From positions 124,001 to 188,000 of the forward strand of contig MKUO01000004.1 in NCBI GenBank assembly GCA_001897855.1: 64,000 nucleotides of DNA, written 5' to 3'. Positions 15,226-44,725 of this stretch are shown here, in pieces. Under the pieces are notes generated by a model that saw only the letters and a list, made by a program, of their open reading frames with translations, did no database searches and had not been told where the DNA came from. The position numbers were made by a program, and so were the translations under genes. Source of the stretch: Bacteroidetes bacterium 43-93 (GTDB lineage Bacteria; Bacteroidota; Bacteroidia; Chitinophagales; Chitinophagaceae). Numbering within the stretch: the stretch's first letter is position 1; each line of letters begins with the position of its first letter.

Positions 15226-15426
15226 GGCATTAGTTTTCAAATTTTGCTAAAAAACCGTGCTATCAAATACATTAGCAATTTTAATATTCAATATTTGTTT
15301 ATATAAGACCATTTACTAAGTTATCTTTACCCTCTATTCGTTAATTATTAAAAATGTAACGGTTTTCACCCAACGCATCATTTATAGATTCAGTCTATTA
15401 TGTTGTAAATCTTTAATACCCGTTAC

Positions 15427-16002
15427 TTGTCTATAGCGTTGAGTTATAATATACAAGGGCAAGCGAGCGAGCTGCATGATCTGATCCAAGGGTGTATACG
15501 CAATGAACGCGGTGCACAGGAAAAGATGTATAGCCTGTTTTATGCCCGAATGATGGGAGTAGTAAAAAGGTATATAGATCACCAGGAACAAGCCGAGGAG
15601 GTGTTGAACAATGGCTTTTTAAGAGCGTTCCAGAAGATCGAGCAATATACCTTTCAAGGTTCTTTCGAAGGTTGGTTAAGAAAAATTGTTTTTCACTCCG
15701 TTTCAGACTATGTTAAGCAGAATGCACGTTATAATGAAAAGGTGGTGCTGGCAGAAAAAGATCAGTTTGTGCACAAAGACCATGCGGATAACCTGTACTA
15801 TAATGAGTTATTGCAGATGGTCCAAAGCTTGCCGGAAGCCACAAGAAACGTGTTCAACATGTATGTGATGGAAGGATTTGCGCACAAAGAGATAGGCAAA
15901 ATGCTCGGAATAAGCGAGGGAACCTCTAAATGGCACCTTTCTGAAGGGCGACGGATATTGAAAGACAAGATTGAAAAACTGAACTTACATTTAAAAAAAT
16001 AA
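15427..16002 (+). CDS. ECF-type RNA polymerase sigma factor
   Basis: The 191-residue protein has sigma region 2 (about 20-95: FYARMMGVVKRYI, AEEVLNNGFLRAFQKI, FEGWLRKIVFHSVSDY) and region 4 (about 125-180: LPEATRNVFNMYVMEGFAHK, EIGKMLGISEGTSKWHLSEG), the usual ECF arrangement. No ATG is available near the N-terminus and an in-frame TAA lies 21 bases upstream, so translation probably begins at TTG 15427 (or TTG 15439). The gene for a membrane-spanning anti-sigma-like protein starts 12 bases after the stop, so the pair is surely co-transcribed. Confidence 0.92.
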   Translation: MSIALSYNIQGQASELHDLIQGCIRNERGAQEKMYSLFYARMMGVVKRYIDHQEQAEEVLNNGFLRAFQKIEQYTFQGSFEGWLRKIVFHSVSDYVKQNARYNEKVVLAEKDQFVHKDHADNLYYNELLQMVQSLPEATRNVFNMYVMEGFAHKEIGKMLGISEGTSKWHLSEGRRILKDKIEKLNLHLKK

Positions 16003-16014
16003 AATTTTATCCCG

Positions 16015-17913
16015 ATGGATAAAAACATGATAAATATTGATGACCTGGTGCGGCTAAAACTAGCCGGTGGAGAAGAGAAGGAGCGGCCCGGCGCCTGGTT
16101 GCAAATGAGGGAGCTCCTGGATAAGGAGATGCCCGTGCAGGCCCCGCCGGCAGTATTTAACTGGAGGCGTACACTCTCCGCTGCAGCCCTGCTGCTGGCT
16201 TTGGGTACTGTAACCATTGGTGGTTACCAGTTATACAATAATAGAAATGCAAAGACAAACAGCAATACCGGCACCCCGGTGGTAGTTGCTCCCAATATGC
16301 ATGCTATTAACAATGCTCCTGCATCTAATTCTGTTCCTGCAAATAACAACGTTTCAACCGGTTCTGCATCAACAAATAATACTTTAATAAACAATAACGA
16401 GCCCGGCGATGGCCACGATAATCAGCCACAGCATATAGCTGTTTCATCTGCTACTGGTGGCGCTAATAAAGGCACCACAGAGAAACGTACCACTCATCAT
16501 ACAGTTAAAGGCTCAGTTGCAGTTAACAATATTGCTGGTCAAAATGACGCGACCGGTAATACTACATCAGGAGAAAATACCATTGTAAACAATACTGCTA
16601 AAGGCACTCAACCGAAAACTTCTAAAAAGAATCATTCTAATAATGTGTTTGCCTCTGCAGGTAAATTACCTGCTAATGGTTTAAATAAACCTACAAAACA
16701 TTCCGGTAATAACAATGGTACCGGTAATGGTATTGCTAAAGGAAATAAAGAAAATAAAAATAATAGCCGTAAGGGTACAGCCCCTGTAAACAATCCATCC
16801 AGCACCTATACTCCCCCTGTTTATAACACAGGCAATAATGGAGTGACTAACCCTGCAAATTTTGCAGTGAATACGCCTCGCGAAAAAAGGCCGGTTTTAG
16901 ATTACCACAAAACCAATCCGAGGTATGTGGACTCTATCAACTTTACTTATGTGCAGGAAAAGAGCCGCAGAGGTGCAAAGCGTATCGATACGATCGACAA
17001 AGGTTTGATGGCTGTTAATCAAAACGAAATAGAACCTGCATCCGCCGCTTCAGGCAATGCTGCTGCAAATGCAGAAGTAAATCCTGCCGCAAACAGCTCT
17101 ATTGAAGATGTAAAATTGACAAGAGCTGAAAGACGTGCGGAAAGAAATAAATACGAACACGAGTCTATCTTCGAAAGAATGGTGGAAAATGCTAAGGTTA
17201 ATTTCAATGAAGTGTCATTCCACCCGGGTTTGATGTTCGGTGTAAGCAGTACAATGGGTAAGTATAACATGTTTGGTGTACAAGGCGGATTTTCAGGTTC
17301 GCTTAATCTAAGCGAGCGTTGGGGAATCTTTGCAGAATTGAAATACCTGTATCGCTTTGGTAATGGTAAATCACTTGCCAATAATTATAATAGTATAGAC
17401 CAGGCACCACCACAATATATTTCACCAAACTATTTCCGCTTCACAGTAGATTCTCAGGAGCACTCATTTAACATATCTTCTTCAGGGCTGGTTGAATTAC
17501 CACTTGCTGTTAGATATAGGGTACAGAAATTGAATTTCTTTGCCGGCGTTGACCTCGCCTACAACTTTGCAGTAAACGTAGAAGAAAGGTTTGATAAGTT
17601 GCATACCTCTTATTACTATGGTAATAATACAGAGAGCTTGCAGAATAACTGGAAGAACAACAACGATCCTAAGCTGACACCTGCTGAATTTGGAAGTCGT
17701 TTCTCCATGGGCTATATGTTTGGTGTAGGTTACCAGGTTTCTCCGGTTATAGGTCTTGATCTTAGGGCTACACAAGTATTCTGGGATAATGGTAAAGTAC
17801 ATTCCGAAGGTGCATACTTTGTATCTAAACAAATGTATCGCTCTCCATGTGTACAGTTCAACCTCACTTATAGCTTTATAGGTAACAAAAATGGCCCGAT
17901 GAAAGCGAGGTAA
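16015..17913 (+). CDS. Putative dual-membrane-spanning anti-sigma factor with outer-membrane barrel
   Basis: The 632-residue protein has four parts. Residues 1-50 are charged and resemble the short cytoplasmic anti-sigma segment of Bacteroidota (LVRLKLAGGE, then PGAWLQMRELLDKE). Residues about 53-72 form one inner-membrane helix. Residues about 75-395 are low-complexity, rich in Asn/Thr/Ser/Gly with basic patches, long enough to cross the periplasm. Residues about 400-632 look like an outer-membrane beta-barrel (GVQGGFSGSLNLSERWGIFA, ELKYLYRF, ending VQFNLTYSFIG). It directly follows the ECF sigma gene. I infer that it holds the sigma factor at the inner membrane and reports on outer-membrane state. 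The same architecture has been reported in Bacteroides as Dma-type anti-sigma factors. Confidence 0.78.
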   Translation: MDKNMINIDDLVRLKLAGGEEKERPGAWLQMRELLDKEMPVQAPPAVFNWRRTLSAAALLLALGTVTIGGYQLYNNRNAKTNSNTGTPVVVAPNMHAINNAPASNSVPANNNVSTGSASTNNTLINNNEPGDGHDNQPQHIAVSSATGGANKGTTEKRTTHHTVKGSVAVNNIAGQNDATGNTTSGENTIVNNTAKGTQPKTSKKNHSNNVFASAGKLPANGLNKPTKHSGNNNGTGNGIAKGNKENKNNSRKGTAPVNNPSSTYTPPVYNTGNNGVTNPANFAVNTPREKRPVLDYHKTNPRYVDSINFTYVQEKSRRGAKRIDTIDKGLMAVNQNEIEPASAASGNAAANAEVNPAANSSIEDVKLTRAERRAERNKYEHESIFERMVENAKVNFNEVSFHPGLMFGVSSTMGKYNMFGVQGGFSGSLNLSERWGIFAELKYLYRFGNGKSLANNYNSIDQAPPQYISPNYFRFTVDSQEHSFNISSSGLVELPLAVRYRVQKLNFFAGVDLAYNFAVNVEERFDKLHTSYYYGNNTESLQNNWKNNNDPKLTPAEFGSRFSMGYMFGVGYQVSPVIGLDLRATQVFWDNGKVHSEGAYFVSKQMYRSPCVQFNLTYSFIGNKNGPMKAR

Positions 17914-18693
17914 TTATTCCTCGCCCATAGCTGCGGCCTTCATAGCAGCTGTGGTCTCAGGCCCCAGATAGGCTACGATACGATGTTCAATAAAGTAGAT
18001 CAATGGCGTTAATATTAACGCCATTGTTGCTTTATAGCTATAGTTTACCAGCCCTATAGCTAAAACTCTCTGGTAGCTCCAGCCATTTCCTATTTTAAAA
18101 GCAATAAATAGTACTACAAAACTATCTATCAGTTGAGATATAATGGTGGAACCGGTGGCACGCAGCCATACCTTCTTCTCCCCGGTTACTTTTTTGATCT
18201 TATGAAATACCCATACATCTAATACCTGGCTTACCAGGAAGGCAGTAAGGCTACCCACGATGATCCACATTCCTTGTCCGAATATGCCTGAGAACGCTGC
18301 CTGCATGTCCGGTATGCCATCAGCGGCATGGCTACCTATCCAAAACTCCCTGTTTGCAGGTACTTTTATAGCTGCGTAGAACATGATGAAAGCATAAGTG
18401 ATCAGGCCCACGGCTATATAAGAAATTCTTCTAACAGCTTTCGGGCCATAAAACTCATTTACTATATCCGTCATTATAAATTCCAGTGGCCATAACAGCA
18501 CACCACATGTAAGTGTGTAAGTGAGCCCATTTTCCCCCAGCAGGCTAAATGGCTTTGGCTCCATGCCAAACAATCGCTCCAGTGAAAATAGTTTACCGCC
18601 GATACACTCTGCTATCAATGCATTGGCAACAAAGAAAGATGCCATGAAGATGAAAAGGCGGGTTGCTTTATCATTAAGAATACTACGGATCAT
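17914..18693 (-). CDS. yhhQ: Queuosine precursor transporter (YhhQ family)
   Basis: This 259-residue integral membrane protein has about six hydrophobic segments. It shows the YhhQ/VUT family pattern: ANALIAECIGGKLFS near the N-terminus, LWPLEFIMTDIVNEFYG, and SQLIDSFVVLFIAFKIG. The family imports the queuosine precursors preQ0/preQ1 for tRNA modification. Its stop abuts, with no gap, that of the convergent anti-sigma-like gene. The neighbouring genes are unrelated to queuosine, so the assignment rests on sequence alone. Confidence 0.87.
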   Translation of the reverse strand: MIRSILNDKATRLFIFMASFFVANALIAECIGGKLFSLERLFGMEPKPFSLLGENGLTYTLTCGVLLWPLEFIMTDIVNEFYGPKAVRRISYIAVGLITYAFIMFYAAIKVPANREFWIGSHAADGIPDMQAAFSGIFGQGMWIIVGSLTAFLVSQVLDVWVFHKIKKVTGEKKVWLRATGSTIISQLIDSFVVLFIAFKIGNGWSYQRVLAIGLVNYSYKATMALILTPLIYFIEHRIVAYLGPETTAAMKAAAMGEE

Positions 18694-20713: not shown

Positions 20714-21148
20714 ATGCGATTCAGGATTTTAATGGTAACAAATAAAGAAGGAAGCCAATACGCAGATGCTGAAATGCTCAAGGAACGCGGCTTCCTGGTA
20801 TATAATTGCACAGACACGGTAGTAACAGGGATGATATCCGAGGTAAAACCGGATGTTGTTTTCATTAATCCTGAATCTCCGGATCTTCATATTACCAAAG
20901 TATATCACAGCATTTTAAAAGATAAGGAACTGGCAAATATCCCGGTCATTTACGCATTGAACGAAGACGATCTTTATCTCGTAAGTTGCCAGCGAAATTC
21001 GCGTAGTAAAAAGAATGTCACCACAGACAATGTGATGGATGGTATAAGAATGTCATTGGCACCTGCCATAGACAAGCGCGCTAAAGAACCGCTAAATCTC
21101 TTGGGTAGGCAAGTGGACCTGTGGCCGGCTAACGTTCATGTAGCTTAG
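20714..21148 (+). CDS. Degenerate receiver-like (pseudo-response-regulator) protein
   Basis: The 144-residue protein follows the receiver fold pattern: beta1 FRILMVTN, a helix ADAEMLKERG, then KPDVVFINPE where beta3 should be, and IPVIYALNE at beta4. Every active-site position appears altered. The acidic pair is TN, the phosphoacceptor Asp is Asn in FINPE, and the Ser/Thr of beta4 is Leu or Asn. It probably cannot be phosphorylated by the normal chemistry and may act by protein contact only. No kinase gene is adjacent. It could also be an unrelated Rossmann-like domain. Confidence 0.6.
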   Translation: MRFRILMVTNKEGSQYADAEMLKERGFLVYNCTDTVVTGMISEVKPDVVFINPESPDLHITKVYHSILKDKELANIPVIYALNEDDLYLVSCQRNSRSKKNVTTDNVMDGIRMSLAPAIDKRAKEPLNLLGRQVDLWPANVHVA

Positions 21149-42223: not shown

Positions 42224-42385
42224 TTCGCGAAGATAATTGCTATTCTGATGAGGGTTTAGAGAAAAAAATTATTATTTACCCAACTAAAAAATTTAAGATT
42301 TTGTCTTTATATTAGTAGCTTATAATAGAAATGTAGGATTGAATCACTCCAATCAAACATTGTATTTTTTTTAAACGTTTGCTAA

Positions 42386-44725
42386 ATGCGAAAACTTTTA
42401 TTACTAACCTTTCTGGGTTTCTTAGGTATTAATGCGTTTGCACAAAACTATACACCGGCGTTTACCCATACATCTGGCACGCAGGTATATAACACTGCAT
42501 CCCCGGTAATACCTATATCTGTTACCATAACTCCTGTTGGCAATCCCGGTAGTACTACACCATATTGCGCAACCGGGCCTTATTTCGTAGCCTACGATGC
42601 ATCTCACACAGGTGGGTACCATTATAGCTTTTCACCCGCGGTAACGCATGTGAAATTCGAGATTGCTGACTTTCAGGCAGATGATACGTTGTATATGCGT
42701 GTTAACGGTACTTTGACACCTATTACATCCGGCATGCTGTCTGGCTATTTGCCGGGATGTACTACACCTGCTCCTACCAGCTCTTATGTAGCTATTGGTG
42801 GCAAGCTTACCAGCACACTTGGCGCGGGTAATAATGGGGTAACATTAACCTATGCGTCTGCTCCCGGTACCATTAGCTCTATAGAACTGGTGCACGACAG
42901 GTTAAATACCAGTTCCGGAGGTGTTGTATGGTCTACTTATGCCGCGTTAGATAGTTGTATGCAGCCATTCCAGGTAACTGCCGATTCACCGTTTTGTACA
43001 GGACGTAATCTGAATCTGCACGTTCCTAATTTTCCGAATACTAGTTTTAGCTGGACGACGACTGCTAGCATCCCTATGCCTGTTGCCCAAACAACAATTG
43101 CGGATCCTGTAGTCCCCAACCTGCAGCTTCCGGCCTCTAACGGTACTTATACTTGTGTAGCTACGCGTGGCGTTTGTACATATACAGCCAGTAAAGATAT
43201 TAGTGTTGACCTGACACCTAAAAAGCCTGTAGTTTCTCAGGTAGGCCCTAAATGCGCAGGAGAAGCTGATACGGTTAAAGTCAATACAAGCCCGAACGTT
43301 TCCAATATTATCTTTGATAACTTTGGTGTTGCGCATCCATGTACTATAAGTCCATTTAACTTTTACGCGATTCCTAACATACAGATATCAAATGCAGGCA
43401 TATATAAAGCTGTATCTATTTCGCTTTTAGGCTGCCCTTCTGATACCGGTTCTGCTAATATCACTTTAAATTCTTTAGCAGTTGCTAATTTCTCTTTCGA
43501 TCTGATGCTGGGTTGTAAAGAAGATAGTGTTCAGTTCCATGACCTGTCCTTAGGTAATACGCAATGGCATTGGGATTTTGGTGATTCCAAGACAGATACA
43601 TTACCTAACCCATTGCATATTTACGATCAGCAAGGTAGCTATCGTGTGAGGTTGATCGTTAATAATGCAAGATGTGTAGATAGTATGACCAAACCATTTT
43701 CGATCAATCACCCGATCGAGGCGAAGTTTGCGATCAGTGATGACAGTATTTGCCAGGGAGATACGATCTATTTTACTAATCAATCTACAGTAACACCGGG
43801 TACAGCTACACCGTTCGACTGGGATTTTAAAGATGGCTATACAAGCAATCTTTTTGAACCTAAACATGGATATACTTATTACGGTTCTTATAATGTTCGG
43901 CTGGTCGTAACAGACTACCTTGGGTGTCACGATACTGCCTATAAAATAATCGCAGTAGACTCTTTAGGTTCCGCGAGCTTCTTCTCTGATACGGTAATAT
44001 GCGCAGGCGAAACCATAAAATTTGCCGGTGACTATTCTACCATCGGTGGTACCTATGCCCTTTGGGATTTTGGCGACGGCCATACCATACAAGATCAGTT
44101 CAGCATTCAGCACGCTTTCGATAATCCGGGTATTTATGATGTTCAGTTGAATGCGCACTACAGGGTATGTAAGGATACTACTTATCATCAGAACATATAT
44201 GTAAATGCATATCCGAATGTTGACCTTGGCCCTGATACAGCAATTTGCCCCGGAGGCCAGCCAATATCAATAGGCGATCTTATCAATAGCCCGGTATCTA
44301 ATCCAAACTATCATTGGAGGTGGAATACAGAAACCAAGGATACCACCGCGAATATTATGGTTCACCACCCCGGTACCTATTCTGTAACGGTAGATAACAA
44401 TGGTTGTACTGCTGCCGATAGTATTGTGGTGAAGAAGAATTGCTACATTGATATTCCTAATGTATTTACACCTAACAACGACGGGTATAACGATTACTTC
44501 CTTCCAAGGCAGTTCCTGTCCCGCAACGTTAGCAAGTTCGATATGACTATCTATAACCGTTGGGGTCAAAAAGTATTTGAAACAAATACACTTGAAGGAC
44601 GCGGTTGGGATGGTAAATTCAACGGTACGGATCAACCTGAAGGTGTATATATATATGTGATCAAGGTTTCGTTCGGTAATGATACTAATGAAAGCTATGA
44701 TGGCAATATCACCTTGCTGCGATAA
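42386..44725 (+). CDS. Large secreted PKD-domain protein with T9SS type B (gliding-type) sorting domain
   Basis: The 779-residue protein has a signal peptide ending NAFAQ. The N-terminal 180 residues form a beta-rich domain, followed by an Ig-like stretch. Three PKD domains are visible from their cores: WHWDFGDSKTDTLPNPLHIY, FDWDFKDGYTSNLFEPKHGY and ALWDFGDGHTIQDQFSIQHA. The last 90 residues are the gliding motility-associated C-terminal domain (IPNVFTPNNDGYNDYF, YNRWGQKVFET, GWDGKFNG, PEGVYIYVIKV). That domain directs type B T9SS export. It probably acts at the cell surface as an adhesin-like protein. The terminator shows it is transcribed alone. Confidence 0.9.
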   Translation: MRKLLLLTFLGFLGINAFAQNYTPAFTHTSGTQVYNTASPVIPISVTITPVGNPGSTTPYCATGPYFVAYDASHTGGYHYSFSPAVTHVKFEIADFQADDTLYMRVNGTLTPITSGMLSGYLPGCTTPAPTSSYVAIGGKLTSTLGAGNNGVTLTYASAPGTISSIELVHDRLNTSSGGVVWSTYAALDSCMQPFQVTADSPFCTGRNLNLHVPNFPNTSFSWTTTASIPMPVAQTTIADPVVPNLQLPASNGTYTCVATRGVCTYTASKDISVDLTPKKPVVSQVGPKCAGEADTVKVNTSPNVSNIIFDNFGVAHPCTISPFNFYAIPNIQISNAGIYKAVSISLLGCPSDTGSANITLNSLAVANFSFDLMLGCKEDSVQFHDLSLGNTQWHWDFGDSKTDTLPNPLHIYDQQGSYRVRLIVNNARCVDSMTKPFSINHPIEAKFAISDDSICQGDTIYFTNQSTVTPGTATPFDWDFKDGYTSNLFEPKHGYTYYGSYNVRLVVTDYLGCHDTAYKIIAVDSLGSASFFSDTVICAGETIKFAGDYSTIGGTYALWDFGDGHTIQDQFSIQHAFDNPGIYDVQLNAHYRVCKDTTYHQNIYVNAYPNVDLGPDTAICPGGQPISIGDLINSPVSNPNYHWRWNTETKDTTANIMVHHPGTYSVTVDNNGCTAADSIVVKKNCYIDIPNVFTPNNDGYNDYFLPRQFLSRNVSKFDMTIYNRWGQKVFETNTLEGRGWDGKFNGTDQPEGVYIYVIKVSFGNDTNESYDGNITLLR

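Follow-up and report, generated by a model that had tools for sequence, protein, structure and literature searches.

The window, that is, the whole 64-kb stretch of DNA that was analysed, contains two open reading frames on the forward strand that were confirmed at 15427-16002 and 16015-17913, with a gap of 12 nt between them. The first encodes a protein of 191 aa, starts with TTG, and scores above the Pfam cut-offs for both Sigma70_r2 and Sigma70_r4_2. With sigma-70 regions 2 and 4 in one short protein, it is an ECF sigma factor, here of the Das type; its match to the NCBIfam model TIGR02985 fell below the model cut-off. The second frame starts with ATG and encodes a partner of 632 aa. A sequence-only reading had proposed that the sigma factor is paired with a single protein encoded 12 nt downstream, and the recurrence of the arrangement exceeds chance. 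The pair is repeated at a spacing of 11-14 nt in all 13 of the nearest loci (the window counted), and a sigma gene was found adjoining the partner gene in 37 of 40 more loci, 7 of which are duplicates of earlier ones, with -8 to 101 nt between the two genes. Despite the 11-14 nt range, the sequence ATTTTATCC, which in the window lies in the intergenic gap (16003-16014) immediately 5' of the partner ATG, is retained in 13/13 of the nearest loci, again counting the window.

TTG also stands at the aligned start of the sigma gene in these 13 loci, displaced by one codon in L010. In 27 of 30 additional loci, UUG is the earliest start codon of the sigma open frame; the partner here uses AUG. Such a difference in start codons may hold the level of the sigma factor under that of its inhibitor. 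Natural read-through of the sigma gene into the partner gene was also considered, since the two are in frame in the window, and was abandoned because they are out of frame in 8 of the 13 nearest loci. Downstream, the end of the partner gene abuts a convergent Vut_1 transporter gene at 17913-17914, with a 4-nt overlap between them in three loci (L003, L004, and L009). A small receiver-like ORF lies at 20714-21148. It has a weak match in NCBIfam alone and none in Pfam, and L003 and L009 have look-alikes close to the locus.

The partner could be divided into four segments. Residues 1-50 (16015-16164) form a predicted cytoplasmic segment with short helices at about residues 8-16 and 27-38. Residues 1-40 are strongly conserved, and MDKNMINID is invariant in the 12 rows of the N-terminal alignment A3; this segment is likely an anti-sigma domain. 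It is followed by a predicted inner-membrane helix, residues 53-71 (16171-16227), which is the best hydrophobic window of the protein (mean hydropathy 1.55; the runner-up elsewhere reached 1.02), giving a single transmembrane helix. Residues 72-379 (16228-17151) make up a long, low-complexity periplasmic tether of 308 aa, rich in Asn, Thr, and Ser (N/T/S/Q 38%, hydrophobic residues 16%), which aligns poorly among relatives and, judged by composition, is predicted to be disordered. Finally, an OmpA-like outer-membrane beta-barrel is predicted for residues ~401-620 (17215-17874) from Pfam and an AlphaFold2 model, and the match to our barrel profile spans residues 381-631.

Hydropathy, composition, and the barrel profile therefore agree with the earlier proposal of one chain carrying a short N-terminal segment, one helix, an Asn/Thr/Ser-rich linker, and a C-terminal barrel. 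The predicted structure of the barrel region had been named beforehand as one of the points at which this proposal could fail. The full 632-aa partner gave no Pfam or NCBIfam match at E<=1, anti-sigma models included. Residues 368-632 alone matched Pfam OMP_b-brl_2 at 32.5 bits (cut-off, 27), and the AlphaFold2 model of the C-terminal region is an OmpA-like barrel, with poor Foldseek superpositions on OmpA itself (query TM 0.33-0.37).

A single scan of GTDB species genomes yielded 12 loci, from Chitinophagaceae, Chitinophagales, Taibaiella, Flavipsychrobacter, and similar groups. The N-terminal profile A3 matched 112 of 394 same-family genomes (the window's own genome counted), including 8 of the 9 other genomes listed for the same genus (G679 is the one without), and 7 of 395 genomes across the phylum. 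A broader N-terminal profile, A8, matched at least 87 of 395 genomes, with at least 136 matches; both counts are lower bounds, at most 14 candidates having been scored per genome. We took 40 regions from the A3-positive family and phylum genomes, which together with 11 A1 loci and minus 7 duplicates gave 44 proteins. Forty of these match the barrel profile, 38 of them at E<1e-20, and the four that do not (L119, L120, L124, and L125) are distant proteins of 485-524 aa. Among the 38, the window included, linkers run from 248 to 643 aa with a median of 319.5. The linker of the window had been described as unusually long, a description that does not hold: at 308 aa it is ordinary, ranking 17th of 40. 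The same genome (G000) also carries a second Dma-type sigma/anti-sigma pair, L174, on contig 23 (353600-358400), with an open frame of 747 aa.

As an indirect check on contact between residues 1-50 and the sigma factor, another point at which the sequence-only proposal could fail, we modelled the sigma factor together with the N-terminus of the partner as a single chain of 276 residues in which the intervening TAA is translated as an amino acid, with an alignment of 11 read-through and 27 sigma-only rows. The model had a mean pLDDT of 80 and a pTM of 0.69, with values of 78-91 per ten residues in the N-terminal segment; in addition to the two short helices of the partner described above, it contains a long one across the membrane segment. 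Superposition of the modelled sigma on SigW from its complex with RsiW gave 5.6 A over 152 residues, on CnrH from its complex with CnrY 6.1 A over 149 residues, and on SigK from its own complex 7.6 A over 146 residues. Six ECF sigmas bound to RNA polymerase, aligned over 138-154 residues, lay 20-27 A away, and ShbA, also polymerase-bound in an initiation complex, gave 10.7 A over 107 residues. The closest fit, 4.9 A over 148 residues, was to SigG1, a crystal structure listed without an anti-sigma partner. Sigma-E (RseA complex) and AlgU (its complex) matched over region 2 only. The structural alignments, made with VIA-align, cover mainly residues 9-187, which is the sigma factor and not the N-terminal domain of the partner. 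The compact arrangement of the sigma is thus weakly consistent with an inhibited state, as SigG1 fits at least as well and joining the two parts in one chain in itself promotes their proximity. The same caution applies to the resemblance of our modelled sigma to those of the CnrY-CnrH and RsiW-SigW systems; to our knowledge, neither CnrY nor RsiW carries an outer-membrane barrel.

Upstream of the sigma gene we observed a predicted ECF promoter, ACCCAAC-N18-GTCTAT (15365-15403, forward strand; core 15369-15398), which at 35.9 bits is the best site in the 64 kb. On both strands of the window only one other site exceeded 10 bits, at 42275-42313 on the forward strand (23.2 bits; core 42279-42308); the third best reached 9.6 bits, and the maximum in three mononucleotide shuffles, one strand each, was 6.0 bits. 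Of 43 family members, the window counted, 39 have CAAC-N18-GTC 5' of the sigma gene, where we estimate that ~0.01 would be expected per 170 nt. Three loci in which no sigma gene was located (L113, L121, and L122) were left out of this count, and the four in which the site is absent (L119, L120, L124, and L125) are the same four that have no match to the barrel profile. The boxes kept 5' of the sigma gene read ACCCAAC-N18-GTCT and so contain the AAC- and GTC-type boxes that are common in, without defining, ECF promoters. Invariance is built into the columns used to pick the sites, but not into the T following GTC (39/39) or the flanking A (34/39) and C (35/39). The conservation of the site in front of the sigma gene implies that the operon is self-regulated.

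We then counted CCCAAC-N(14-22)-GTCTWT in ten genomes that bear the pair. Of the 103 matches, 44 had a spacing of 18 nt, ten of them belonging to the operon itself; every other spacing had 3-14. The 34 that remain at N18 are above both the average of 7.4 (Poisson P = 9e-13) and the highest count at any other spacing (Poisson P = 4e-6), with the reservation that relatedness among the ten genomes makes sites and counts non-independent: G000 and G775 have near-copy sites, as do G776 and G780. As controls we used 16 same-family genomes without a detected pair, chosen from 20 listed among the 282 without an A3 match. In these, 15 of 102 matches fell at N18 and 6-15 at the other spacings, i.e., there was no enrichment. 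Without the autoregulatory sites, the density of N18 sites was 0.91/Mb in pair-bearing genomes versus 0.20/Mb in pair-less ones (Fisher P = 4e-4); here, presence of the pair tracks phylogeny, and in two of the controls (G292 and G269) the broader profile A8 does detect a distant Dma-like N-terminus.

The second site in the window ends, at its core, 77 nt 5' of a gene at 42386-44725 on the forward strand. Its product, a predicted target, is a secreted protein of 779 aa with PKD domains (Pfam PKD_4) and a T9SS type B sorting domain (CHU_C), which scored 59.4 bits against TIGR04131 (cut-off, 35). Across the ten genomes, 20 of the 34 non-autoregulatory sites sit 0-163 nt before members of a single BLAST-linked group of secreted proteins; G777c, one of the 20, additionally falls across an open frame of 143 aa. 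Fourteen of the 20 linked proteins have a T9SS sorting domain above the cut-off and two more (L153 and L205) fall less than 1 bit below it; the other four (L084, L150, L202, and L204) are truncated where a contig or fetched region stops, and the one of them that was scanned, L150, gave no match. Three sites lie 5' of one second ECF sigma gene (G000, G775, and G777), and two, in two genomes, 5' of one membrane-protein-like family (L066 and L069), for which the L066 product gave no NCBIfam or Pfam match. One site precedes a small OMP-like ORF and one a receiver-like ORF in G782. That ORF is a homologue of the one at 20714 in the window, which has no promoter site above 10 bits nearby. The rest comprise five sites within ORFs of at least 208 aa and two that are followed by no ORF of 100 aa in the next 300 nt. 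Of the five further sites in the window's own genome, two stand before genes for type B proteins and one before a gene for a type A protein; another precedes an incomplete member of the BLAST group, and the last the second ECF sigma gene. These are to be read against a high base rate of T9SS cargo in that genome (22 matches to TIGR04131 and at least 150 to TIGR04183). Taken from sequence, these positions suggest that the switch probably governs large secreted T9SS surface proteins.

The A8 matches also revealed a different organization. Among the matches listed, 59 lie in open frames of up to 350 aa and 77 in longer ones. We fetched 20 of the 59 short anti-sigmas (L182-L201). All 20 have an ECF sigma gene upstream, as judged by profile, and each has, 7-240 nt downstream and in the same orientation, a gene for a protein of 267-532 aa whose start looks by eye like a signal peptide. 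Of nine such downstream proteins scanned, six matched OMP_b-brl_2 at E<=0.01, and L182, L186, and L188 gave no match; with L176 added, the counts are 7/10 at this threshold and 4/10 above the model cut-off. The wider group probably comes in both fused and split forms, and the covalent link is therefore not universal.

A Bacteroides precedent of the same layout, named in the sequence-only reading, proved to be real: the available part of PMC13088901 describes a matching four-part protein next to an ECF sigma gene. In the Dma family the neighbouring cognate sigma belongs to the ECF21 group. By its architecture, the locus is a Dma-type system in another branch of the Bacteroidota. As reported there, loss of Dma1 lifts repression of das1, the effect of Dma2 loss requires Das2, and loss of Dma1 or Dma2 results in hypervesiculation, with PUL expression also affected (PMC13088901). 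These phenotypes differ from what is indicated here, where promoter sites point to T9SS surface proteins. Dma3 of B. thetaiotaomicron has the same order of parts with the sigma domain at its own N-terminus, in contrast to the separate genes, 12 nt apart, found here (PMC13088901). The part of that account available to us gives no promoter motif for Dma systems, and it describes the family as limited to Bacteroidota, the phylum to which our own search for relatives was confined.

Two other systems bear comparison. SigP of Porphyromonas gingivalis is an ECF sigma that controls T9SS genes, as is proposed for the sigma here; however, it depends on PorX/PorY, its targets are genes for T9SS components, and the motif suggested for it differs from the site here, while the descriptions available contain no outer-membrane-spanning anti-sigma factor (PMC4800418, PMC7712824). 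In Flavobacterium psychrophilum, the SM6 promoters are ECF-type promoters that, like the predicted sites here, precede an ECF/anti-sigma pair and T9SS genes, but according to the portion of the study available their T9SS targets are components (GldN and PorU) rather than cargo, and the motif is given as a CGT box (PMC9723704). In our literature search, none of the titles and abstracts among the matches listed connects Dma-type factors to T9SS cargo; one paper, PMC12045153, contains both terms, with Dma in its reference list only. What is new here is the conserved promoter-like site CAAC-N18-GTC, the enrichment of the N18 spacing with the pair, the predicted T9SS cargo targets, and the split relatives.

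We favour, at a probability of about 0.73, the reading that the locus is a two-gene, self-regulated, Dma-type switch that carries information from the outer membrane to a sigma factor and drives T9SS surface proteins. The first ~50 residues of the partner would retain the sigma factor in the cytoplasm, the single helix would anchor the partner in the inner membrane, and the flexible tether would traverse the periplasm to a barrel residing in the outer membrane. With assumed coil constants, the 308-aa tether would extend ~17 nm relaxed and ~111 nm stretched and would therefore be able to bridge the periplasm. Some change perceived at the outer membrane would release the sigma, through cutting or pulling of the tether, and the freed sigma would use ACCCAAC-N18-GTCTWT promoters in front of its own operon, of genes for surface proteins exported by the T9SS, and, in some of the genomes, of the gene for a second ECF sigma. 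The direction of control, with the partner as a brake on the sigma, would be as in Bacteroides, by analogy with which we assign it. A much less likely extension of this reading is that the barrel itself senses outer-membrane assembly or the load of surface proteins, such that a barrel that is uninserted, displaced, or lost in vesicles would withdraw the brake and the T9SS coat would be remade.

The strongest alternative, which we place somewhat below even odds, is a variant of this explanation and overlaps it. Periplasmic and intramembrane proteases would cut the chain when the barrel misassembles or meets a ligand, so that destruction of the brake is itself the signal and the tether provides no mechanical link. 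Proteolysis is an established route for anti-sigma factors of the RseA type, the slack implied by the calculated tether lengths would make pulling alone a poor signal, and split relatives do without a covalent link. On the other hand, all 38 family proteins whose barrel match is confident retain the fusion, with tethers of 248 aa or more, and a route of proteolysis alone would have no need of it.

It is also possible, but unlikely, that a different ECF sigma reads the site, for example the second one, encoded on contig 8, with the sigma/Dma pair merely one of its targets. ECF promoters are often similar to one another, and the window's own genome holds other candidate readers, with 21 matches to one ECF family model. 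Moreover, in addition to the three genomes in which the second ECF gene has the site, its upstream region is near consensus in G776 (24 bits) and G780 (21 bits), weak in G779 (4.6 bits), and without a site in G778. Yet this second ECF sigma was found in 16/16 pair-less genomes, which show no N18 enrichment, and among the 13 in which a short sequence marker allowed it to be placed the site lay 5' of it in none (G396, G402, G416, and the second copy in G399 were unplaced). The retention of the site 5' of the das-type gene across the family also argues against this alternative. The promoter site is absent from the second Dma-type pair of the same genome, L174, which we count in favour of the self-regulated switch. 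The simplest reading is that the sigma factor of the 15427 locus itself reads ACCCAAC-N18-GTCTWT.

Finally, that the barrel is an ordinary outer-membrane protein joined to a membrane segment, with an N-terminal part that is no anti-sigma factor, would fit the lack of any anti-sigma model for that part in Pfam or NCBIfam at the threshold used, but is quite improbable given the linkage to an ECF sigma gene, the strong conservation of the N-terminus, and the genetic precedent of Dma1 and Dma2 in the available part of PMC13088901.

Dma proteins have so far been reported, in the account available (PMC13088901), for a few Bacteroides genes. Our results suggest that a Dma-type class governs surface proteins in other Bacteroidota, and with a defined promoter, a testable group of T9SS targets, and naturally split versions, a two-membrane anti-sigma factor becomes a hypothesis that can be examined in bacteria from outside the gut. 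If the barrel does itself sense assembly or surface-protein load, a single chain in both membranes would serve Bacteroidota as a direct gauge for adjusting the secretion of surface proteins to the condition of the outer membrane.
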